A stretch of 20,960 bases of DNA, taken from positions 1 through 20,960 of IMG/VR virus record IMGVR_UViG_3300048507_000291. The stretch is one strand, 5' to 3'. Origin of the DNA: a virus. Position numbers and translations under genes: made by a program. Below the pieces are notes generated by a model. It worked only from the letters and a program-made list of their open reading frames with translations. It did no database searches and was not told the DNA's origin. Below are positions 2,806 to 16,669 of the stretch, in pieces; position 1 is the first letter of the stretch; every line of letters starts with the position of its first letter.

Positions 2806-5471
2806 GTTACGTGGACGCAATGTTCGATAGAGATTCTGATATTATTAGAGCTGTTGAACGTCGAGAAGGCAAAAGACATTTTACAGAGTATCCGGTAAAG
2901 TATACTTTTTATTACAAAGACCAACGTGGCAAGTATAAAAGTATATACGGTGACCCACTAAGTCGTATTGTTTGCAAAAACACAAAAGACTTCCGCAAAG
3001 AAGTTGCTATTAATAGAGACAAGCAACTATTCGAAAGCGACATTAATCCTATATTTCAATGTTTAAGTGAAAACTATCTTAATCAAGATGCACCTAAACT
3101 AAACATTGCATTCTTTGATATTGAGACTGACTTTGATCCAGAGAGAGGCTTTGCTGATCCAAGTGATCCCTTTATGCCTATTACAAGTATCTCAGTATAC
3201 TTGCAATGGTTAGAAACAATGGTATGCTTGGCTGTTCCTCCTAAGACACTTACTATGGACGAAGCTAAAAAAGAACTTGAAGGTATCGACAATGTAATGT
3301 TGTTTGAAAAAGAAGGTGACATGATTGACACTTTCTTGACACTGATTGAAGATAGTGATATCTTATCAGGTTGGAACAGCGAAGGTTATGATATTCCTTA
3401 TACTGTAAACAGAACTGCTCGTGTACTAAGCAAAGATGACACACGTAGATTTTGCTTGTGGGGACAACTTCCTAAGAAGCGTGAATATGAAAAGTATGGT
3501 AAAATAGCACAAACCTTTGACCTAATAGGCAGAGTGCATTTAGATAGTTTGAATTTATATCGTAAATATACATATGAAGAAAGACACACATATAGACTTG
3601 ATGCCATTGGCGAAATCGAAGTTGGCGAGAACAAGGTCCCTTATGAAGGTACTTTGGACGCATTGTACAACAATGACTTTAGAAAGTTCATCGAATACAA
3701 CATACAAGATACCGCACTACTGGACAAGCTGGACAAAAAACTAAGATTTATTGATCTTAGTAACGAACTTGCTCATGCAAACACTGTTTTGCTACAAACC
3801 ACTATGGGGGCCGTAGCAGTTACAGAACAAGCCATTGTCAACGAAGCACATCATCGAGGCATGCAAGTTCCTAATCGTGCAAAACGTGATGATGAAAACA
3901 CACAAGCCGCAGGTGCGTATGTGGCATTTCCGAAAAAAGGACTGCACAAATGGATTGCAAGTATGGACTTGAACAGTCTATATCCTAGTGTAATTCGTGC
4001 ATTGAATATGGATCCGGCAACTATTGTTGGACAAATACGTCCTGATATTTCAGATGCTCGTGTAACAGAAGATATGGGTCTAAAGAAAAAGTCATTTGCA
4101 GGTAGTTGGGAAGGGCGTTTTAGTACAGAAGAATACGAAGCTGTTATGGAGCAACGCAAAGATGTTGCACTTACAGTTGACTTTGAGAACGGCGAATCAA
4201 AGGTAATGAGTGGTGCTGAAATATACAAAGTAATCTTTGATAGTAATAAACCTTGGATGCTTAGTTCAAATGGCACAATTTTTACAACAGAATACGAAGG
4301 TGTTATTCCTGGACTTCTAAAGCGTTGGTATAGTGAACGTAAAGATCTACAAGCACAACTTAAAAAAGCAAAAGACGCAGGCAATTCTATTGAAATTGAA
4401 TACTGGGACAAACGTCAACTTGTTAAGAAGATTAACTTGAATAGTTTGTATGGTGCTATTTTAAATCCAGGCTGTAGATTTTTTGATAAAAGAATTGGTC
4501 AATCAACCACACTAAGTGGTCGAACTATTGTTAAGCATATGAGTGCAGAAGCTAACAACGTCATTGCAGGTAAGTATGATCACACAGGTGAAGCAGTAAT
4601 TTATGGTGACACTGACTCTGTATATTTTAGTGCATACCCAACACTTAAAGCTGATATTGATTCAGGTAAAATTCCATGGTCAAAAGAAAATGCTATTAAG
4701 CTTTATGATCAAGTAAGCGAGGCTGTAGATAGTACGTTTACAAAATTTATGGCCCAAGCATTTCACTGTCCAGCAAGTCGTGCAGAAGTTATTGCAGCTG
4801 GTAGAGAAATTGTTGCAGAAAGCGGATTATATATTACTAAGAAACGTTATGCAGCACTAGTAATTGACAACGAAGGGTTTAGAACTGACGTTGATGGCAA
4901 AGCTGGAAAAGTAAAAGCTATGGGCTTAGACTTGCGTAGATCAGATACACCTGTGTTTATGCAAGAGTTTTTAAGTGAACTATTACTAATGGTACTAACA
5001 GACAAGCCAGTAGAAGATGTACTAGAACGTATTACTGTATTCCGTAAAGAGTTTAGTGAACGTCCTGGTTGGGAAAAGGGTTCGCCGAAACGTGCTAATA
5101 AAATTGGTCACTATCAGCGACTAGAAGAAAAACAAGGCAAGGCAAATATGCCTGGTCATGTACGAGCAAGCATTAACTGGAATACACTTAAACGCATGAA
5201 TGGCGACAAGTATTCGCAAGAAATTGTTGACGGTATGAAAGTTATTGTTTGTAAATTAAAACAGAACCCACTAGGGTATACAAGTGTTGCTTATCCAACA
5301 GATGAGCTTCATATACCTGATTGGTTCAAAGAACTGCCATTTGACGATGCAGCAATGGCAGAAACTATTATTGATAATAAGCTAGACAACTTAATTGGTG
5401 TGCTAAACTATCCGTTAGAAGATACAAAGCGTAACAATACGTTTAACAGTTTATTTGATTTTGGAGAATAA
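2802..5471 (+). CDS. 43: Family B DNA polymerase with 3'-5' proofreading exonuclease (T4 gp43 type)
   Basis: Encodes 889 residues, close to T4 gp43 (898). The exonuclease motifs are present: FDIETD at 105-110 (Asp106, Glu108), GWNSEGYDIPY at 190-200 and YNIQDTALL at 299-307. The polymerase motifs are also intact: A, DLNSLYPSVI at 389-398; B, KKINLNSLYG at 542-551; C, YGDTDSVY at 601-608; and KKRYAAL near 680. The C terminus, FNSLFDFGE, is of the type by which T4 gp43 binds the gp45 clamp. The start is TTG at 2802, chosen because GAGGAGG lies seven bases upstream. All catalytic residues look intact, so this is the replicative polymerase. Confidence 0.97.
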   Translation: MSYVDAMFDRDSDIIRAVERREGKRHFTEYPVKYTFYYKDQRGKYKSIYGDPLSRIVCKNTKDFRKEVAINRDKQLFESDINPIFQCLSENYLNQDAPKLNIAFFDIETDFDPERGFADPSDPFMPITSISVYLQWLETMVCLAVPPKTLTMDEAKKELEGIDNVMLFEKEGDMIDTFLTLIEDSDILSGWNSEGYDIPYTVNRTARVLSKDDTRRFCLWGQLPKKREYEKYGKIAQTFDLIGRVHLDSLNLYRKYTYEERHTYRLDAIGEIEVGENKVPYEGTLDALYNNDFRKFIEYNIQDTALLDKLDKKLRFIDLSNELAHANTVLLQTTMGAVAVTEQAIVNEAHHRGMQVPNRAKRDDENTQAAGAYVAFPKKGLHKWIASMDLNSLYPSVIRALNMDPATIVGQIRPDISDARVTEDMGLKKKSFAGSWEGRFSTEEYEAVMEQRKDVALTVDFENGESKVMSGAEIYKVIFDSNKPWMLSSNGTIFTTEYEGVIPGLLKRWYSERKDLQAQLKKAKDAGNSIEIEYWDKRQLVKKINLNSLYGAILNPGCRFFDKRIGQSTTLSGRTIVKHMSAEANNVIAGKYDHTGEAVIYGDTDSVYFSAYPTLKADIDSGKIPWSKENAIKLYDQVSEAVDSTFTKFMAQAFHCPASRAEVIAAGREIVAESGLYITKKRYAALVIDNEGFRTDVDGKAGKVKAMGLDLRRSDTPVFMQEFLSELLLMVLTDKPVEDVLERITVFRKEFSERPGWEKGSPKRANKIGHYQRLEEKQGKANMPGHVRASINWNTLKRMNGDKYSQEIVDGMKVIVCKLKQNPLGYTSVAYPTDELHIPDWFKELPFDDAAMAETIIDNKLDNLIGVLNYPLEDTKRNNTFNSLFDFGE

Positions 5472-5576
5472 ATGAAAATTAAAGTAGAGATTGAAATTGA
5501 TTCTGATAAGCCTGATGATGCAGACTTAGTAGAACAAATAATGGATGTACTAAAAGAACTAAAGGAGAGACAATGA
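5472..5576 (+). CDS. 34-residue acidic protein, unknown
   Basis: ATG 5472 follows the polymerase stop directly, with GGAG at 5463-5466 five bases upstream. The frame runs 34 codons, MKIKVEIEIDSDKPDDADLV and then EQIMDVLKELKERQ, and stops in an ATGA overlap with the next gene. The composition, a beta-like alternating start and an acidic helix, is coherent and phage-like. There is no known function. The good ribosome site and the tight overlaps on both sides support it as a real small gene. Confidence 0.65.
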   Translation: MKIKVEIEIDSDKPDDADLVEQIMDVLKELKERQ

Positions 5577-5902
5577 AAGTAAATCTGGATGACATAGGCG
5601 GTTATATTGCAAAACAAGATGATAGGTATGTTGTTAAAGACAATCCTTTTGGTAATACACTAGTCCTAAGCAGTACCAGATTACACGGACATAAAGAAAC
5701 AAGTGGACATAAACATGATGGACAAGAAGAAGTATATTTGTTTATCGAAGGGGCAGGACAAATGCAATTGGATAATGAATTTATCGAAGTAGAAGCAGGC
5801 GATGTAGTACCTATCAATGATGGTGTATTCCATAAAGTAATAAATCCACGTGATGCAGACATGTATTTTATTTGCGTCTTTGACGGGCAAAGGAAACACT
5901 AA
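5573..5902 (+). CDS. Cupin-fold protein
   Basis: Encodes 109 residues with a single cupin barrel. The first motif is LHGHKETSGHKHDGQEEVYLFIEGAG (about residues 38-63), with the His pair and Glu that usually bind a metal. The second is EAGDVVPINDGVFHKVIN (about 74-91), with the closing His. Small cupins act as sugar isomerases or epimerases, dioxygenases or binding proteins. It lies at the head of an overlapping run with a cytidylyltransferase, a phosphomannomutase-like phosphatase and an NAD-dependent epimerase, so a role in sugar or nucleotide-sugar metabolism is plausible but not shown. AAAGGAGAG ribosome site just upstream. Confidence 0.8.
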   Translation: MKVNLDDIGGYIAKQDDRYVVKDNPFGNTLVLSSTRLHGHKETSGHKHDGQEEVYLFIEGAGQMQLDNEFIEVEAGDVVPINDGVFHKVINPRDADMYFICVFDGQRKH

Positions 5903-6318
5903 TGAAAGTAGGATTTACTTGCAGTACATTTGATCTATTACATGCAGGACATGTAATTATGCTACGTGAAGCGAAAGAGCAATGCGACTATTTGTTAGTG
6001 GGGTTACAAGTTGATCCTAGCGTAGATAGAAAAGAAAAGAACTCACCAATACAAACTATTGTAGAACGTTATACACAATTAAAAGCAGTTGGTTATGTAG
6101 ATGAAATTATCCCTTATGGCACAGAAGAAGATTTAGAAGATATTTTGCAGATGTATCCTATAAACATTAGAATATTAGGAGAAGAATATCGCGATAAGGA
6201 TTTTACTGGCAAGGATATATGTCGTAGTAGAGATATAGATTTGCATTTTAATAAACGAGATCACCGATTCAGCACAAGTGATTTACGTTCACGAGTAGCT
6301 GACACGGAGAAGAAATGA
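5902..6318 (+). CDS. Cytidylyltransferase, glycerol-3-phosphate type
   Basis: Encodes 138 residues, full length for the TagD/TarD-type nucleotidyltransferase fold. FDLLHAGH (10-17) is the HxGH nucleotide-binding motif, RYTQLKAVGYVDEII is the usual mid-domain segment, and RFSTSDLRSRV near the C terminus occupies the place of the ISSTxIR motif. The family joins CTP to a phosphorylated alcohol or sugar (for example glycerol 3-phosphate) to make a CDP-activated compound. Relatives occur in marine T4-like phages. The exact substrate is unknown. It overlaps the cupin by one base and the following small gene by four. Confidence 0.85.
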   Translation: MKVGFTCSTFDLLHAGHVIMLREAKEQCDYLLVGLQVDPSVDRKEKNSPIQTIVERYTQLKAVGYVDEIIPYGTEEDLEDILQMYPINIRILGEEYRDKDFTGKDICRSRDIDLHFNKRDHRFSTSDLRSRVADTEKK

Positions 6319-6494
6319 CTGACGCAGAAGAAAAGAGATTGGCTATTGAAGCAGACAGAAAATTAGTCAAAGAATGGTTAGCTAAAGGCAACGAAATTAC
6401 AGTTTATCCATATGGTGCTAGATCTGAAGAAGTAGAATATACTAGTGGTATGTATGCAAAAAGGAAAAAGAAGGGTGAAAAAAGTAAAAAATAA
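6315..6494 (+). CDS. 59-residue charged protein, unknown
   Basis: ATG 6315 overlaps the cytidylyltransferase stop (ATGA). The 59-codon frame begins MTDAEEKRLAIEADRKLVKE, contains the segment WLAKGNEITVYPYGARSEE, and ends in a Lys-rich tail. GGAG lies six bases before the start (6306-6309). The helix plus 'WLAKGNxITVxPxGAR' pattern resembles short proteins of marine T4-like phages, from memory. The function is unknown. The C-terminal 20 bases overlap the GTG start of the next gene. Confidence 0.7.
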   Translation: MTDAEEKRLAIEADRKLVKEWLAKGNEITVYPYGARSEEVEYTSGMYAKRKKKGEKSKK

Positions 6495-7194
6495 ATTTAT
6501 TTTTGATGTTGACGGAACATTAACTCCGAGCAGGCAAGTAATCGATGAACGATTTGCAGTTTGGTTTAAATCGTTTTGCCAATCAAATGATGTTTATCTT
6601 GTTACAGGCAGTGATCGGCCTAAAACGCTCGAACAAATCGGCGAAACAATTTATAATAGCTGTAAACGTGTATATAATTGCAATGGTAATGATGTTTGGG
6701 AAAAAGATGTAAATGTTAGATCTAACGATTGGATATTACCAGAAGATGCACACGAGTGGCTTAGTATTGAGCTCACAGAAAGTGATTTCAACTTACGAAC
6801 AGGATTGCATTTTGAACATCGTCCTGGTATGGTAAATTTTAGTGTTGTTGGTCGCAATGCAACAAAAGAACAAAGAGAAAAATATGTAGTTTATGACTCT
6901 TTAACTTCTGAACGTGAAATAATTGCAAGACAATTCAATGCATTGTTTCCTAAGATCAAGGCAACAGTAGGCGGAGAAACAGGTATCGATATATCACCTA
7001 TCGGCACTGATAAAGCACAAATTATAAAAGACTTTGATGCCGAAGATACTAAATATTTCTTCGGAGATAGAATGGATAAGGACGGAAACGATTATCCTTT
7101 AGCACAAGTTGTGAACCACACTAGAGCAGTAAGTAGTTGGCAGCAAACAAGAGAGTATCTACAATTTTTTCAAGAGTCTGGAATAGCATCATGA
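6475..7194 (+). CDS. HAD-superfamily phosphatase, phosphomannomutase-like
   Basis: Encodes 239 residues from GTG 6475, preceded by AAGGA at about 6461-6465; upstream ATGs at 6445 and 6454 lack a ribosome site and run inside the previous gene. FDVDGTLTPSR holds the nucleophile and acid/base aspartates (Asp11, Asp13). The second half reads GGETGIDISPIGTDKAQII then KYFFGDRMDKDGNDYP. The latter pair matches the cap and loop of eukaryotic-type phosphomannomutases (type IIB HAD), which interconvert mannose 6- and 1-phosphate. The family could equally be a sugar-phosphate phosphatase. Context with the epimerase and cytidylyltransferase supports sugar-phosphate chemistry. Confidence 0.8.
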   Translation: MKKVKNKFIFDVDGTLTPSRQVIDERFAVWFKSFCQSNDVYLVTGSDRPKTLEQIGETIYNSCKRVYNCNGNDVWEKDVNVRSNDWILPEDAHEWLSIELTESDFNLRTGLHFEHRPGMVNFSVVGRNATKEQREKYVVYDSLTSEREIIARQFNALFPKIKATVGGETGIDISPIGTDKAQIIKDFDAEDTKYFFGDRMDKDGNDYPLAQVVNHTRAVSSWQQTREYLQFFQESGIAS

Positions 7195-7955
7195 TAGCCG
7201 TACAAAAAATACTACTAACAGGTCATAGAGGATTTATTGGTAGTAGATTGCACAAAAGACTATTACACAATGACGTAGTAGGTATCGATTTATTAGACGG
7301 ACAAGACTTGCTTACTTGTGATTTACCTAACGTAGATTTTGATTTAATTATACACTTAGCAGGACGTTCTGGTGTTCGTGAAAGCATTAATGATCCTGCG
7401 GCATATTGGCAGAATAATATAGAAGCAAGTAGGCGATTGTTTGAGCGTTATCCTGAAACACGTATATTGTATGCGAGCAGTTCGAGTGCATACGAACCAG
7501 ACTTAAATCCTTATGCGGCAAGTAAATATGTGCTAGAAGAATTAGCAGAACGCTATCCAAATACATTAGGTATGAGATTTCATACTGTATGGAGTGACAC
7601 TCCAAGAAAAGGAATGTTTCTTGATAAACTTTTTAACAATAAATTAGAATACGTAACTAACCATCATCGAGACTTCATACATATTAATGATGTTTGCGAT
7701 GCTATACAAATACTAATTAATAAACCCCATGTCAAAGGAGTATTAGACATCGGATCAGGTAACCCGATTAAAGTCCGTGACTTAGCACCTGATGCTCCTA
7801 TTCGTCTAAATACCCCGAACGAAAGGACATTTACATGTGCTAATACAGAAAAAATGAAAAGCTTAGGCTTTAAACCTAAATATAGTATAGAAAACTACTT
7901 GACAAACGCTGATAAAGGCATTATACTTAATATAACTAATGGAGAACCCGCATGA
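7191..7955 (+). CDS. NAD-dependent sugar epimerase/dehydratase (SDR family)
   Basis: Encodes 254 residues from ATG 7191, which overlaps the previous stop (ATGA). The Rossmann glycine motif is TGHRGFIGSRL (10-20). HLAGRSGV (55-62) is the usual second strand, SSSSAYEP holds the catalytic Ser/Thr position, and YAASK (108-112) is the YxxxK motif. It is slightly short for extended SDR enzymes (about 300), but the C-terminal substrate region is present. Such enzymes act on nucleotide sugars such as UDP- or GDP-hexoses. Its substrate is not evident. The last codons contain the promoter of the clamp gene. Confidence 0.85.
   Translation: MIAVQKILLTGHRGFIGSRLHKRLLHNDVVGIDLLDGQDLLTCDLPNVDFDLIIHLAGRSGVRESINDPAAYWQNNIEASRRLFERYPETRILYASSSSAYEPDLNPYAASKYVLEELAERYPNTLGMRFHTVWSDTPRKGMFLDKLFNNKLEYVTNHHRDFIHINDVCDAIQILINKPHVKGVLDIGSGNPIKVRDLAPDAPIRLNTPNERTFTCANTEKMKSLGFKPKYSIENYLTNADKGIILNITNGEPA
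7899..7927 (+). promoter_or_regulatory. sigma70-type promoter for the sliding clamp gene
   Basis: TTGACA (7899-7904) and TATACT (7922-7927) are separated by exactly 17 bp, inside the 3' end of the epimerase gene. The transcript would start at about 7934, giving a short leader with GGAG at about 7941 before ATG 7952. This allows the clamp to be expressed independently of the upstream metabolic genes. Confidence 0.8.
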
Positions 7956-8683
7956 AAGACATTTTACAAGACGTTGTTGCTAAAACCCACGCACTAGGCT
8001 TTTTAAGCTTAGTAAAGGTAAACAGTGAAAGCGAAGCAACAACTTTCGAAAGTATGGCAGAAGATCGTTCTGTGATTTTAAATTCTACTACGCACTCAGC
8101 TGTGTCAGAATTTAACGGCACATTTGGAATGCCTAACCTAGATAAACTAGCATTACATTTAAAAAATCCTGAGTATCAAAAAGATGCTAAAATTGATGTA
8201 GTAACTGCTGATAGGAACGGTGAAGTTATTCCTACACATATACACTTTGAAAACGCAAGTGGTGACTTTGAAAATGATTATCGATTTATGAATAAACAGA
8301 TCATTGAAGAAAAACTTAAAAGTGTAAAATTTAAAGGTGCGTCTTGGAATGTAACATTTCAACCTAGTATGGCAGCAATTGGTAGAATGAAATTGCAAAG
8401 TGCGGCACACTCAGAAGAGCCTACATTTAATGTTTCAACTAAAGACAATGACTTAGTGTTTAGCTTTGGTGATGCAAGTACACACGCAGGTACATTTGTT
8501 TTTGAAGCTGGTGTCGAAGGTACATTATCTCATACATGGAGTTGGCCTGTTGCACAAGTGCAAGCTATCTTAAATTTAGATGGTGATATTACTATGAGTA
8601 TTAGTGATCAAGGTGCTATGCAAATTAGTGTAGATAGTGGTTTGGCAAAATATGATTACATACTTCCAGCACAGAGCAAATAA
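7952..8683 (+). CDS. 45: DNA polymerase sliding clamp, gp45-like
   Basis: Encodes 243 residues; T4 gp45 has 228. The two-domain clamp pattern can be followed by eye: residues 1-75 give an opening domain with FNGTFGMPNLDKLALHL where clamps have F-G-x-aliphatic-x-L, and residues 125-240 run as repeated strands ending AVQ-type VAQVQAILNLDGDITMSI, then GLAKYDYILPA, the usual clamp C-terminal strand. T4-type clamps form a trimeric ring that tethers gp43 to DNA and also activates late transcription. The polymerase here ends in a clamp-binding tail, which supports the call. Start ATG overlaps the epimerase stop (CATGA) and has GGAG upstream. Confidence 0.72.
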   Translation: MKDILQDVVAKTHALGFLSLVKVNSESEATTFESMAEDRSVILNSTTHSAVSEFNGTFGMPNLDKLALHLKNPEYQKDAKIDVVTADRNGEVIPTHIHFENASGDFENDYRFMNKQIIEEKLKSVKFKGASWNVTFQPSMAAIGRMKLQSAAHSEEPTFNVSTKDNDLVFSFGDASTHAGTFVFEAGVEGTLSHTWSWPVAQVQAILNLDGDITMSISDQGAMQISVDSGLAKYDYILPAQSK

Positions 8684-8887
8684 ATGACTCCAGCAGAACA
8701 AGCACAAAAACAAGCAGAACAAGCTATGGACGGCTTTATGGCTTGGTCTAAGAAAGGCTTGATGTGGAGTGCAATTTTTCTTTGCGTTGTAGTATTTGCA
8801 TGTAATAACGGTGTTGAGACTGGACCAAATAAAACTGGGTCTCAATATAATGGCGAACAATATTCGCCAATGAATATGGGAAAATAA
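8684..8887 (+). CDS. Small single-span membrane protein
   Basis: Encodes 67 residues: a helical N-terminal part rich in Gln/Ala (MTPAEQAQKQAEQAMDGF), one hydrophobic segment at about 26-41 (LMWSAIFLCVVVFACN), and a polar tail with Asn/Gly/Thr. A Cys follows the hydrophobic stretch, but the N-terminal 25 residues are too long and charged for an ordinary lipoprotein signal, so a membrane anchor is more likely. It sits between the clamp and the dpdA gene, with a one-base overlap to the latter. Function unknown. Confidence 0.65.
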   Translation: MTPAEQAQKQAEQAMDGFMAWSKKGLMWSAIFLCVVVFACNNGVETGPNKTGSQYNGEQYSPMNMGK

Positions 8888-10446
8888 TGATTACAGACTT
8901 GACAAAAGCACAACAGGATTACGCAACTTTTTTACCAGCACTTAGCGGGTTCTTTGCAACGTATGTTGGTAAACAGCGACATCCTGATCCTGTGAAAGGT
9001 CCGTATGTTGATCCGGCTAGAGTACCTAGCAACTTTCCAAATGGAGTTGAAAGCTTAAACTATCTTAATAAACAAGAAGGTATGTTCCAATACAAATGGT
9101 GTTTGTATTCTGCAGGGCATGCCGACTTAGACACAACTAAGTTTGTACCTAAAGAAGATATGGTACGAAACAGAGACAGAGCAAATACTTGGTTATTAGG
9201 TGATAGTGGCGGTTTCCAAATTGGTAAAGGCGTTTGGGAAGGAGACTGGAAAGATCCCAACTGTCCTAAAGCACAAAAGAAACGTGACGGTGTTCTTAAA
9301 TGGATGGATGCTTACATGGACTATGGAATGATACTTGATATTCCAGCTTGGGTAGCACGTTCTCCAGAAGGTGCAAAAGCAACAGGTATTTCAACATATG
9401 CAGAAGCAGTAGCCGCAACACGTATTAACAATGATTATTTTATGAAGCACAGAACAGGTGCTTGTAAATTTTTAAATGTATTACAAGGCGAAAATCACGC
9501 AGACGCAGATGATTGGTACAATCAAATGAAAGACTACTGCGATCCTAAAGTATATCCAGACACACATTTTAATGGGTGGTCAATGGGTGGTCAGAACATG
9601 TGTGATGTACATTTGGTTCTTAAACGTCTAGTTGCATTGAGATTCGACGGACTACTGGAAACAGGCATACATGATGTAATGCACTTCTTAGGTACATCAA
9701 AACTAGAGTGGGCTACACTACTAACTGATATACAAAGAGCAGTTCGTAAATATCATAATCCAAACTTTATGATTACATTTGATTGTGCAAGTCCTTTCTT
9801 AGCAACTGCTAATGGACAGATTTATTGTGAACTCGAAACACAAGATAGATTGAAATGGGTATATCGAATGGTTCCTAGTATTGATGATAAAGGATTATCA
9901 CAAGATACTACACCATTTGGCAGTGCATTTGTAAGAGAAGGTAAGCACACTAGCTTTAAAGATTCTCCTATTACTGCTGAACTACAAGCCAAAGATATAT
10001 GCATATATGGTCCAGGAGATCTAAATAAAATAGGTAAAGAAGGAAAAACATCTTGGGATAGTTTTTCATATGCGATCCAAATGGGTCATAATGTATGGAG
10101 TCATATTAATGCAGTACAAGAAGCAAATAGACAATACGACAATGGAATCATTCCGAACATGCTTGTTGAAGAACGTTTCGACAGGTTATTTTTTAGAGAT
10201 GTTGTGGAAGCAATATTCGCAACTGACAGTCGAGACGAAGCGAATGCAGTAATTGAAGAATTTTCAAAATTCTGGATGTCAATACCAGGTACTAGAGGTG
10301 CTATTGGTAAAAAGACTGTTAATGCACAAACCTACTTTAATTCATTGTTTGACACAGACGATAATGTTGAAGAAGAACAAGAGCAGGAACTTAATGAAGA
10401 AAAGTTAGAGGTACTAGAGGATGAGCAACTTCACAGCGAAGCATGA
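8887..10446 (+). CDS. dpdA: DpdA-type DNA 7-deazaguanine transglycosylase
   Basis: Encodes 519 residues related to tRNA-guanine transglycosylases. DSGGFQ (106-111) is the family signature with the first catalytic Asp; LDIPAW (150-155), VLQGEN (198-203) and GWSMGG (230-235) match substrate-pocket segments; FDCASP (298-303) holds the second catalytic Asp (299), equivalent to the nucleophile in DCxxPTR. The zinc-binding CxCxxC-H tail of tRNA enzymes is not seen. That, the phage setting and nearby FolE, QueD-like and QueE genes point to DpdA, which swaps guanine in DNA for a 7-deazaguanine base. An acidic tail (after residue 490) and the hexapeptide FNSLFD at 484-489, also present at the polymerase C terminus, are notable. 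Confidence 0.87.
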   Translation: MITDLTKAQQDYATFLPALSGFFATYVGKQRHPDPVKGPYVDPARVPSNFPNGVESLNYLNKQEGMFQYKWCLYSAGHADLDTTKFVPKEDMVRNRDRANTWLLGDSGGFQIGKGVWEGDWKDPNCPKAQKKRDGVLKWMDAYMDYGMILDIPAWVARSPEGAKATGISTYAEAVAATRINNDYFMKHRTGACKFLNVLQGENHADADDWYNQMKDYCDPKVYPDTHFNGWSMGGQNMCDVHLVLKRLVALRFDGLLETGIHDVMHFLGTSKLEWATLLTDIQRAVRKYHNPNFMITFDCASPFLATANGQIYCELETQDRLKWVYRMVPSIDDKGLSQDTTPFGSAFVREGKHTSFKDSPITAELQAKDICIYGPGDLNKIGKEGKTSWDSFSYAIQMGHNVWSHINAVQEANRQYDNGIIPNMLVEERFDRLFFRDVVEAIFATDSRDEANAVIEEFSKFWMSIPGTRGAIGKKTVNAQTYFNSLFDTDDNVEEEQEQELNEEKLEVLEDEQLHSEA

Positions 10447-10633
10447 AAAATATGCAATATACCTACAAGAACTTTATAAAAAGCATAGAACACTGGACAA
10501 AGAAATTATCGAAGGATATAAAAAATTAATGCCAGATCAAGAACTTGTAGTACTCAAAACAAAAAAATTATGGTTTAAAGACGAAATACATCGAATTGAA
10601 AAGAAACTTGTTGACCTAGGACCTATATCATGA
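10421..10633 (+). CDS. Small helical protein, DUF465/YdcH-like
   Basis: Encodes 70 residues that form two helices: residues 5-30 (KHEKYAIYLQELYKKHRTLD) and 42-66, ending LVVLKTKKLWFKDEIHRIEKKL. The order 'hxxLxxLYxxHxxLDKEI ... ELxxLKxxKLxxKDEI' is that of the DUF465 (YdcH) family of small coiled-coil proteins, whose role is unknown. It overlaps the end of dpdA by 26 bases in another frame and the next gene by four (ATGA), so it is part of the dpdA operon. It may be a small partner, but nothing more is shown. Confidence 0.65.
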   Translation: MSNFTAKHEKYAIYLQELYKKHRTLDKEIIEGYKKLMPDQELVVLKTKKLWFKDEIHRIEKKLVDLGPIS

Positions 10634-11145
10634 AAAGAAATTATGACGCAGGCGAGTTTGATAACGTAACATACTTTACTGGTACAGAAGTAGAGCATAC
10701 TCCTGCATATGGTATGTATACATTGTTTGTAACAGGAGTACAACCTGTTAAAGATATCGAAGAACAACTATTGGCATATAATCAAGTAGAACATATTTTC
10801 TTTGGTGCTAATCATAGTGTGCAAGCAAATAAGGTCGGACCTGGTTGGGGAGAAATGATTACACACTTCTTAAAACAAGATTATTGGTGTAGTTTAGATA
10901 TTCCGATTACTTGTGCAGAAGAGATTTTAGAAGACGGTCTCACAGAGTACGACAATTTTATTCCGCAAATCCGTGTTCCGATTCCATATGTAAAACTATG
11001 GAACTACAACACTATGATTAAAATTGATGACAAAGGATTTGCCGCAACTAATCCAGGTGTTTGGAGTCACAGACTTCATGACTTGATGGATGCAAATAAA
11101 TTTACTAATTGGTCCAAATATGGCCTTGACAAACCTATTAAATGA
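10630..11145 (+). CDS. Conserved-looking phage protein linked to dpdA, function unknown
   Basis: Encodes 171 residues with no family I can name. It has segments VEHTPAYGMYTLFVTGVQP, VEHIFFGANHSVQ, KQDYWCSLDIPI, FIPQIRVPIPYVKLWNYN and TNPGVWSHRLHDLMD. Strand-helix alternation and several buried-looking aromatic/His/Asp positions suggest a compact alpha/beta domain, possibly enzymatic. I have an impression of similar proteins in marine T4-like phages but cannot confirm it. Tight coupling (ATGA overlap) to the dpdA operon makes a role in deazaguanine base handling the leading hypothesis, and no more than that. Confidence 0.7.
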   Translation: MKRNYDAGEFDNVTYFTGTEVEHTPAYGMYTLFVTGVQPVKDIEEQLLAYNQVEHIFFGANHSVQANKVGPGWGEMITHFLKQDYWCSLDIPITCAEEILEDGLTEYDNFIPQIRVPIPYVKLWNYNTMIKIDDKGFAATNPGVWSHRLHDLMDANKFTNWSKYGLDKPIK

Positions 11146-11160: not shown

Positions 11161-11694
11161 ATGGTAGAAGATGAACACACATCACCAGTTTTTGAAAAAG
11201 GTTACCCATCGTATGATGCAGTCAATCGTGAAAGCTATCATGATTACATGGGTAGACGAATGAGAGAGGAAGATGCTAAAATGCAAAAAGAAAATGCACT
11301 AAATAATGCACAACGAAGTATATGGGTTACATTCTCAAAGGAAGGTATTCATTGTTATCCGGCAGCATTAGATGATCCCAAACTTGCAACAGGTGGGTGG
11401 GATGATGTTAGTTTTCTTGGTCATCCTCATCGTCACATTTTCCACTTCAGGGTGCGTATTGAGGTGTTTCACGATGATAGAGACATTGAATTCATTCAGT
11501 TCAAGCGATGGCTTGAAAGACTATACAGTGATTCCGCTGAAGGTCAAGTGCTTGTTCTAGATCATAAATCCTGCGAAATGATTGCAGATGAACTATATAA
11601 AGAAATTTCAAATCGACATCCCGGCCGTTTTGTCGAAATTGAAGTAAGTGAAGATAACGAAAACGGCTGTTCAATTTTTTATCCAAATAGTTAA
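11161..11694 (+). CDS. queD: QueD-like T-fold protein (6-carboxytetrahydropterin synthase family), divergent
   Basis: Encodes 177 residues; the fold starts at about residue 52. By eye it lines up with E. coli QueD in order: His64 in GIHCYPA with the first zinc ligand, His90/His92 in HPHRHIFHFRVRIEV with the HGH pair, DIEFIQFKRW with the IDFxxLK segment, LDHKSCEMIA with the LDH/PTxE region, and EVSEDNENGCSIFY with the VKET...GC C-terminal strand. QueD makes 6-carboxy-tetrahydropterin from dihydroneopterin triphosphate, between FolE and QueE. The catalytic Cys normally four residues before the HxH pair is absent. The N-terminal 40 residues are extra; ATG 11281, with AGGAAG eight bases upstream, is an alternative start. 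Confidence 0.65.
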   Translation: MVEDEHTSPVFEKGYPSYDAVNRESYHDYMGRRMREEDAKMQKENALNNAQRSIWVTFSKEGIHCYPAALDDPKLATGGWDDVSFLGHPHRHIFHFRVRIEVFHDDRDIEFIQFKRWLERLYSDSAEGQVLVLDHKSCEMIADELYKEISNRHPGRFVEIEVSEDNENGCSIFYPNS

Positions 11695-15090: not shown

Positions 15091-15780
15091 GTGAGCAAAG
15101 TAGAAGAAATTAAAACAAAGCTAGAAGAAGCTGGTATTAGATACTGGGCTAATGATAACATTAGTGAAGTACTTGAAGAAGGCGACAAGCAACAACTAAT
15201 TGAAGAAGCAGTTCCTGCTTTCGAAAATGTATTACAAACACTGTTAATTGATACAAAAACAGATCCTAACAGTCAAGACACCGCAAGGCGTATGGCTAAG
15301 ATGTACATTAATGAAATTATGTCTGGTCGTTATGATACAATGCCTAACCCAAGTGCATTTCCTAACTACATTGAAGGTGGTTATGAAGGTATGTTGGTTG
15401 TGCGTAGTGAACTTACAAGTTTATGTTCGCATCATCACCAAACAGTAAAAGGTGTGGCATACATTGGTATTATTGCAGGTCCTAAACTATTAGGTCTTAG
15501 CAAGTACACACGTATTGCACAATGGTGTGCTATGCGAGGAACACTACAAGAAGAGCTTAATGTTATGATTGCAAATGCAATACAAGAGCAAACTGGTAGT
15601 GAACACGTTGGCGTATACGTACAAGCGACACATGGTTGTTGTGAGAACAGAGGTATTAGAGCAAAAAGTAGTCTAACACAAACAACTGTATTGCGTGGTG
15701 CATTTAAAGACGATCCTGCAACTAAAAAAGAGTTTATCGATAATGTTAAACTTCAGCAGGAGTTCGCGTGTGGGAAATAA
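15091..15780 (+). CDS. folE: GTP cyclohydrolase I
   Basis: Encodes 229 residues from GTG 15091. The zinc site is complete: Cys112 and His115 in SLCSHHHQTVKG and Cys183 in ATHGCCENRG, with His181 beside it. GLSKYTRIAQWCAMR (about 135-149) and QEEL are the usual substrate-binding helix. The enzyme opens GTP to 7,8-dihydroneopterin triphosphate, the first step of both folate and 7-deazaguanine synthesis. No other folate gene is present, while queE follows directly, so the product most likely feeds the deazaguanine path. It has its own strong promoter. Stop overlaps the queE start region by 11 bases. Confidence 0.95.
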   Translation: MSKVEEIKTKLEEAGIRYWANDNISEVLEEGDKQQLIEEAVPAFENVLQTLLIDTKTDPNSQDTARRMAKMYINEIMSGRYDTMPNPSAFPNYIEGGYEGMLVVRSELTSLCSHHHQTVKGVAYIGIIAGPKLLGLSKYTRIAQWCAMRGTLQEELNVMIANAIQEQTGSEHVGVYVQATHGCCENRGIRAKSSLTQTTVLRGAFKDDPATKKEFIDNVKLQQEFACGK

Positions 15781-16669
15781 GCTTAGATACTCAGAAGCTT
15801 TTTACTCTGTACAAGGTGAAGGTAGATTTGTAGGAGTCCCTAGTGTATTCCTACGTACCTTCGGTTGTAACTTTCGTTGTATGAATTTTGGTACAGATGA
15901 AACAAGAGATCGTTGGGAACAACACAAAGCAGGTAAAAAGCATAATGCAGAGGTTGCAGAATTAATTGCAAAAGATGTACATAAAACAACTGTAGACTTT
16001 AACGATTTGCCTATTATACACACAGGCTGTGATACTTATGCAAGTATCTATCCTGAGTTTAAGCATTTTAATAAGCAAAAAGAAGTAGATGAAGTAGTAG
16101 AACATCTTCTTTCACTTACTCCTGAAGGTAAGTGGACAATGGATAATGGACAAGATATACATTTAATTATGACAGGCGGTGAACCGTTGTTAGCGTGGCA
16201 ACGGCTTTACATTGAGCTATTCGAACATCCACGCATGCAGGATTTAAAAAATGTTACATTTGAAACAAATACTACGCAACGTCTCAAAGATGATTTCTGC
16301 GACTATCTCAGCAATCAAGACAGATTTGAAGTTACTTGGTCTTGTTCCCCAAAACTATCAGTTAGCGGAGAACCTTGGGATACTGCTATTAAGCCTGATG
16401 TTGCTAGTGAGTATAGCAATGTGGATGGTAGCAATATCTATCTTAAGTTTGTGGTTGCTACTAAAGATGACTTTGATGAAGTTACTAGAGCTGTCGAAGA
16501 GTATCGTAGCGCCGGGGTCGACTGTCCAGTATATCTTATGCCGCTGGGCGGACGTTCGGAAGAGTACAACCTTAATGTTCAAGAAGTTGCGGAGGCGTGT
16601 ATGGAAAGAGGATGGCGTTTCACCCCAAGACTCCACATATCCTTATTCGGAAATGCATGGGGTACATGA
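15770..16669 (+). CDS. queE: 7-carboxy-7-deazaguanine synthase (radical SAM)
   Basis: Encodes 299 residues from GTG 15770, with AGGAG at 15758-15762. SEAFYSVQGEGRFVGVPSVF is the QueE opening with the QGEG substrate loop. The cluster motif reads TFGCNFRCMNFG: CxxxC is present but the third Cys of CxxxCxxC is Phe. A Cys in IHTGCDTYAS about 65 residues later may supply it. MTGGEPLLAWQ is the SAM-binding GGE motif. Residues after 240 end the small barrel (LHISLFGNAWGT). The enzyme converts 6-carboxytetrahydropterin to 7-carboxy-7-deazaguanine. The family is clear; the cluster arrangement is a variant. Confidence 0.88.
   Translation: MGNKLRYSEAFYSVQGEGRFVGVPSVFLRTFGCNFRCMNFGTDETRDRWEQHKAGKKHNAEVAELIAKDVHKTTVDFNDLPIIHTGCDTYASIYPEFKHFNKQKEVDEVVEHLLSLTPEGKWTMDNGQDIHLIMTGGEPLLAWQRLYIELFEHPRMQDLKNVTFETNTTQRLKDDFCDYLSNQDRFEVTWSCSPKLSVSGEPWDTAIKPDVASEYSNVDGSNIYLKFVVATKDDFDEVTRAVEEYRSAGVDCPVYLMPLGGRSEEYNLNVQEVAEACMERGWRFTPRLHISLFGNAWGT

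Follow-up and report, generated by a model that had tools for sequence, protein, structure and literature searches.

A predicted clamp-binding peptide in the tail of a phage DpdA-like DNA-guanine transglycosylase

The viral DNA analyzed here, positions 1–20,960 of IMG/VR record IMGVR_UViG_3300048507_000291 (the whole stretch of 20,960 nucleotides is called the window below), encodes a family-B DNA polymerase, a sliding clamp, and a DpdA-like DNA-guanine transglycosylase on the same strand (Table 1). Judging from the sequences and the structure models, the DpdA-like enzyme very likely belongs to the clients of the sliding clamp that the phage itself encodes, and would dock on this clamp through a short peptide in its C-terminal tail. 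This tail peptide is kept across very distant relatives, which makes it very probable that the enzyme travels with the replication machinery; docked on the clamp, it would place deazaguanine in newly made phage DNA. We infer that the two proteins bind physically, that the enzyme is localized at the fork, and that the tail is needed for modification or affects it.

A Peptide Shared by the Polymerase and DpdA

An earlier note on this DNA had observed that the polymerase ends in FNSLFDFGE and that, of all other proteins in the window, DpdA alone contains the same hexapeptide, FNSLFD. Translation of the open reading frames (ORFs) bears this out: the polymerase terminates in TFNSLFDFGE, with the hexapeptide at residues 881–886 (nucleotides 5442–5459), in DpdA it stands in the context ...QTYFNSLFDTDDNVEEEQ..., and it occurs nowhere else among the 33 proteins of the window. 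The coincidence of a hexamer alone is weak evidence. After shuffling, the window proteins still have on average 0.65 hexamers in common, and LEQIGE recurs in another real pair; the significance of the exact hexamer was therefore dropped as an argument. Once position and conservation are added, however, the sharing of FNSLFD goes far beyond chance. The polymerase tail has the h-x-x-a-a-D-F pattern of RB69 gp43, which ends in SLFDMFDF, and of T4 gp43, which ends in SLDFLFG; RB69 gp43 is also the best PDB match of the window polymerase (E 9e-61).

The AlphaFold2 (AF2) model of DpdA was built on 93 homologues, and the clamp and DpdA were modeled as single chains. Burial of the hexapeptide in the modeled fold had been named as a point to check; the motif falls within a disordered segment (residues 471–499) with predicted local distance difference test (pLDDT) values below 50, and hence is not buried. 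A weak short helix is modeled at residues 480–487 of this segment. The acidic helix that follows recurs as D-x-K-L-x-x-L-E in many homologues and is missing where homologues end at the motif.

Conservation and Relocation of the Motif

Single-sequence scans with the DpdA of Pseudomonas phage PA5oct and with a Vibrio DpdA gave no matches, so alignment seeds were used instead, which brought in DpdA relatives at about 30–50% identity. Each scan was limited to the best 80 loci. The IMG/VR contigs are fragments, and gene calling was mechanical. Many of the loci are interrelated, and the count at the level of clusters is thus the fairer figure.

Among the 80 nearest DpdA homologues (77–100% identical), 79 keep a [FY]xxLF[DE]-like segment, the exception being L040, and some homologues terminate at or just past it, in KFGELFE or QFGNLFTEE. 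A larger set comprised 202 unique DpdA tails, which fall into 49 core clusters. Here, 143 tails carry F..[LMF]F and a further 19 a C-terminal [LMF]F at most three residues from the end, together 162 (80%), compared with 5% of shuffled tails and 2.9% (25/862) of other phage genes. At the cluster level the motif is present in 35 of 49, and it is retained at 29–45% identity, past the alignable region. Degenerate [LMI]F cores (ISNSLFVE and NKDLFDW, for example) are seen in most of the other 40 tails. When a score matrix trained on polymerase tails alone was applied to 135 polymerase/DpdA pairs, it recognized 100 of the 135 DpdA tails (p ≤ 0.01 against shuffled tails) versus 8 of 983 other DpdA segments. 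What is kept in close and distant homologues alike is the h-x-x-a-a core ([FLM]xx[LFM]F, usually with D or E added); the exact hexamer, whose conservation the earlier note had named as a check, is not. A comparison of 71 ortholog groups from five long phage contigs shows the motif near the C-terminus in the polymerase and DpdA and in no other group. Two sequences considered as marks of further clients, an internal FGSL[YF]E in a baseplate-like protein and a C-terminal FFA/FFG in a baseplate-hub-like protein, were set aside as structural.

The position of the motif is not fixed. In L308/L310 and L328/L330/L338/L341 the usual site has decayed and a new C-terminus ends in NPSLFE or TTFDSLFE, and proteins of the L293 group end in VADLFG. 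In phage PA5oct, SFNSLFDVD lies beyond the alignable part of DpdA, and the polymerase ends in HFDSLFGW; in Vibrio phage 2.275.O, the last residues are NNNDLFGW in DpdA and NNTDLFDW in the polymerase. Polymerase tails of the FF type (ending in ALQAFFEF) are paired with DpdA tails of the FF type (ending in VLNEFFEF), and at the L/F/M position the DpdA residue equals that of the polymerase in 9 of 11 classifiable non-L polymerases.

The motif also follows the presence of the clamp, as the earlier note had proposed: in bacterial genome records it is absent in 33 of 34 chromosomal DpdA homologues without a phage clamp beside them, and it is present in three phage contigs that had been binned among these records and contain a polymerase and a clamp. 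In a fourth contig (L399), dpdA precedes the gene of a gp44-like loader by two genes, and its product ends in VFNQFFE. The motif-less DpdA-like genes (L366–L398, L401) belong mostly to Alphaproteobacteria (Shinella, Azospirillum, Sphingobium, Sulfitobacter, and others). In a motif-less phage clade (L296, L301, L306, L313, L317, L323, L326) the clamp is 2–5 kb off, or none was found near dpdA. Phage Phosso was considered as a case of a C-family polymerase phage without a clamp and was ruled out, having a B-family polymerase that ends in TTFNDLFTF and a clamp elsewhere in its genome.

Identification of the Sliding Clamp and the Transglycosylase

Searches of Pfam, PHROGs, NCBIfam, and PADLOC put a name to neither the clamp nor DpdA, and a sequence search of the PDB found no relative of either. 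Both were therefore identified from structure models based on alignments of phage homologues. The clamp model shows the two-domain fold of the PCNA/gp45 superfamily, and all 50 matches listed by Foldseek against the PDB are PCNA or 9-1-1-type clamps (E 6e-11 to 1.4e-9), confirming what the earlier note had assigned to this gene. Accordingly, phrog_12062 should carry the annotation sliding clamp. Homologues of it are annotated as “structural protein” in PA5oct (L132:1921-2667) and as “DNA polymerase III sliding clamp beta” in Phosso (L361:3969-4709). Despite the common fold, the window clamp has no detectable sequence relation to gp45 of Vibrio phage nt-1, and a Pfam scan was likewise without a hit, which sets it apart from the T4-type gp45 sequence family. 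The clamp gene shares its strand with dpdA in all 160 non-redundant loci and lies at most 1.5 kb upstream in 159 of them, the remaining one overlapping by one base; the median gap is 214 bp.

For the DpdA model, the top 16 Foldseek matches in the PDB are tRNA-guanine transglycosylases (TGTs; best E 2e-6, probability 1.0), with the (beta/alpha)8 fold of this family. The enzyme thus models as a TGT, in agreement with its earlier designation as DpdA, though no family library names it. Its invariant DSGGFQ signature residues and D299, and the deazaguanine pathway genes for FolE and QueE in the window, also fit the DpdA/TGT superfamily. Base exchange in DNA is assumed for it from its family and context.

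A Second, 9g-Type DpdA Family

In E. coli, the DpdA of phage 9g puts deazaguanine into DNA (PMC6884629). Like the putative transglycosylase of the window, DpdA1 of 9g and other Queuovirinae is a deazaguanine-insertion enzyme encoded beside a clamp gene and has a clamp-type motif at its C-terminus. It differs in that the two proteins have no alignable homology (hhalign probability 0.5), in its clamp, the phrog_947 processivity factor, and in the QxLF type of its motif. In 9g itself the gene order is folE-dpdA-clamp-pol, and DpdA ends in LQDLFDE; dG+ has been measured for this phage on E. coli K-12. Proteins of this type (among them L406:3007-3960 and L414–L424) come from Providencia, Pseudomonas, Escherichia, Vibrio, Alteromonas, Variovorax, Sulfitobacter, Rhizobium, and Synechococcus phages and from viral contigs, and their C-termini are VQELF, IQELF, VMELF, IQGLF, QMELF, TQGFF, EQRLF, QPGLF, PDPVLF, and similar. 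These tails match QL(S/D)LF, the consensus of peptides that bind the bacterial beta-clamp (PMC9690074, PMC4549789). An end of the [LF]F type is found in all 13 of the 9g-type DpdA encoded beside a phage clamp gene and in none of the four encoded beside parB; in L411 it is present though no clamp was found.

The two DpdA families appear, from their sequences, to have gained the tail separately, each in a form suiting its own clamp. It is fairly probable that tethering to the replisome is a general, convergent trait of phage DNA 7-deazaguanine transglycosylases, found in at least two unalignable families. In each, dpdA lies beside the clamp gene and the peptide fits the family's own clamp (PIP/SCBM-like with the PCNA/gp45 fold, that is, resembling PCNA-interacting-protein boxes and sliding-clamp-binding motifs, and QxLF-like with phrog_947), and the clamp would set which DNA is modified, new phage DNA and not that of the host, and when.

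Proposed Mechanism and Alternatives

In the mechanism that we propose, the C-terminal tail would serve the TGT-fold body as a flexible tether. It bears a PIP/SCBM-like peptide, F484-x-x-L487-F488 followed by acidic residues, which is of one type with the C-terminus of the polymerase and would occupy the peptide pocket of the clamp whose gene lies just upstream. This clamp would be loaded at primer ends and stay on the new duplex, so that the tether would concentrate DpdA on replicating phage DNA; there, beside or behind the polymerase, the enzyme would swap guanine for a 7-deazaguanine at or behind the fork.

Alternatively, the tail might bind another partner in the replisome, or DpdA itself in dimerization or autoinhibition; that it resembles the polymerase tail would then be a coincidence. 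TGTs are dimers, and a folded baseplate protein bears a conserved look-alike, but this explanation is unlikely, since the motif is disordered, shifts along the tail, matches the clamp tail of the polymerase, and is absent where there is no clamp, and since in the unrelated DpdA family, whose clamp is of the beta type, the motif is of that type too. Docking on the beta-clamp of the host, DnaN, rather than on the phage clamp is very improbable: F occupies the first motif position in 98 of 100 strong matches of the window family, where Q is never listed, the phage polymerase carries the same peptide and the phage's own clamp gene is next door, and chromosomal homologues in DnaN-bearing bacteria are without the motif, even if the SLF core resembles bacterial QL(S/D)LF (PMC9690074) and 9g-type tails such as the terminal IQELF fit beta very well. 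A functionless chance hexapeptide, kept merely by the close kinship of the proteins, could draw on the number of hexamers that window proteins share by chance and on the high identity of the 80 nearest homologues. Such an origin is hardly credible for a motif that is kept at 29–45% identity and in 35 of 49 core clusters and that re-emerges at new C-termini.

Several observations weigh against docking of DpdA on the phage clamp. The T4-like phage nt-1 has gp45 as well as DpdA2, yet this DpdA2 is without the tail motif. One-fifth (20%) of the 202 tails fail the pattern, and L040 and L234 look like real losses. When counted on the tree, the L/F/M covariation amounts to 3 versus 0 independent pairs (p 0.25), and with just three such pairs it is underpowered and suggestive only. 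The look-alike FGSL[YF]E is kept inside a baseplate-like protein (G003 118848-122482 and its orthologues), so conserved chance matches in folded proteins do exist. Clamp binding was found not to be the main determinant of modification by the T4 alpha-glucosyltransferase (PMC13216743), and in E. coli the modification of plasmid DNA by 9g DpdA goes ahead with no phage clamp present (PMC6884629); on plasmids, the host beta could serve 9g DpdA as its clamp.

Comparison with Known Clamp Clients

The clamp motifs of T4 gp43, gp55, and gp33 are interchangeable C-terminal peptides that bind gp45 (PMC2988020). DpdA resembles the T4 proteins with such motifs (gp43, gp55, gp33, and DNA ligase, all with gp45) in having a C-terminal peptide that is short and hydrophobic-acidic and is joined through a flexible linker, and the h-x-x-a-a core is common to DpdA and the C-termini of T4 gp43 (LDFLFG), T4 gp55 (LDFLYEAND), and RB69 gp43 (LFDMFDF); in gp55, as in DpdA, residues follow the motif. 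Whereas the T4 clients are a polymerase, a sigma factor, a co-activator, and a ligase, the client proposed here is a base-exchanging DNA modifier.

The earlier note knew of no description of clamp-tethered base exchange. Clamp-bound DNA modification as such does have precedents, in the T4 alpha-glucosyltransferase and in DNMT1, but a client that exchanges bases differs from both. As stated in PMC13216743, citing Sommer 2004, the T4 alpha-glucosyltransferase binds gp45; it would thus share with DpdA, whose binding is predicted, the character of a phage DNA-modifying enzyme on a phage sliding clamp, but it adds glucose to an already incorporated base and has no C-terminal clamp tail. Residues 211–217 of this enzyme (L404), FYQMFDF, resemble the RB69 gp43 tail LFDMFDF and are possibly its clamp site. 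DNMT1 binds PCNA at the fork via a PIP box (PMC11371216) and is likewise a DNA-base modifier tethered to a clamp; unlike DpdA, it is a eukaryotic methyltransferase with an N-terminal PIP box that performs maintenance methylation rather than base exchange. A further contrast is DpdA2 of nt-1, which like the window enzyme is of the TGT type and comes from a phage with gp43 and gp45, and differs in lacking the C-terminal clamp motif; its match to profile A1 is weak (probability 58.6, E 1e-4) and falls to a probability of 3.6 with the larger profile A3.

If DpdA is indeed a clamp client, the tether would explain how the enzyme is targeted to the phage's own genome and how modification comes before restriction enzymes act. 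Base exchange would then be, after glucosylation, a second chemistry by which DNA hypermodification is linked with the replisome, and patterns of modification by strand or by distance from the fork would be suggested. It would also offer a rule of general use in the search for clamp clients encoded by uncharacterized phage genes.

Features of the Window and Pathway Genes

TABLE 1. Positions of the features discussed in the window, with the basis of each assignment.
Feature	Position	Strand	Basis
Family-B (gp43-like) DNA polymerase, 889 aa	2802-5471	+	Pfam DNA_pol_B 5e-35, exo1 1.4e-17; phrog_262 E 1.8e-193
Putative C-terminal clamp-binding tail of the polymerase, FNSLFDFGE	5442-5468	+	Sequence; pattern as in RB69/T4 gp43
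Sliding clamp (PCNA/gp45-type fold), 243 aa; phrog_12062 “unknown function”	7952-8683	+	AF2 pLDDT 93.7; Foldseek
Hypothetical ORF between clamp and dpdA, 67 aa	8684-8887	+	ORF list
DpdA-like DNA-guanine transglycosylase, 519 aa	8887-10446	+	AF2 pLDDT 89.9; Foldseek
TGT active-site signature DSGGFQ, residues 106-111	9202-9219	+	D106, S107, G108, G109, Q111 invariant in 93 homologues
D299 (FDCASPF), candidate catalytic nucleophile	9781-9783	+	Invariant in 93 homologues; role by analogy with TGT
Disordered tail of DpdA, residues 471-499	10297-10383	+	AF2 pLDDT <50
Predicted clamp-binding motif of DpdA, FNSLFD, residues 484-489	10336-10353	+	Sequence, conservation
C-terminal acidic helix of DpdA, residues 504-516, EKLEVLEDEQL	10396-10434	+	Model helix, block pLDDT about 78
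FolE, GTP cyclohydrolase I	15091-15780	+	Pfam 1.8e-37
QueE-like 7-carboxy-7-deazaguanine synthase	15695-16669	+	phrog_2076 4e-54; TIGR04322 2e-12, under curated cut-off

In three related loci (L059, L060, and L066), the polymerase ORF is interrupted at about residue 604 and has an intein-like extension (TVTEDHSLMIDRDGF...). Genes for deazaguanine synthesis were surveyed in 13 long phage records, among them those behind L005, L048, L191, L205, L246, L311, and L332 and those of PA5oct and Phosso: FolE is encoded in 12 of 13, PTPS in 10 of 13, and a full-length QueC in only one. PA5oct encodes FolE and PTPS but gave no match to QueC. The phages poor in QueC may use 7-carboxy-7-deazaguanine as the base, the QueC of the host, or a replacement yet to be recognized. 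The phrog_17812 protein at 11161-11694 of the window (HPHRHIFHFRV... DHKSCEMIADEL) has a likeness to QueD/PTPS that was noticed by eye and is unconfirmed by Pfam. At 10630-11145, the window encodes a 171-aa protein of no known family (TEVEHTPAYGMYTLFVTG...), whose gene follows dpdA at a short distance in several divergent phages and which is a candidate for the missing step of the pathway.

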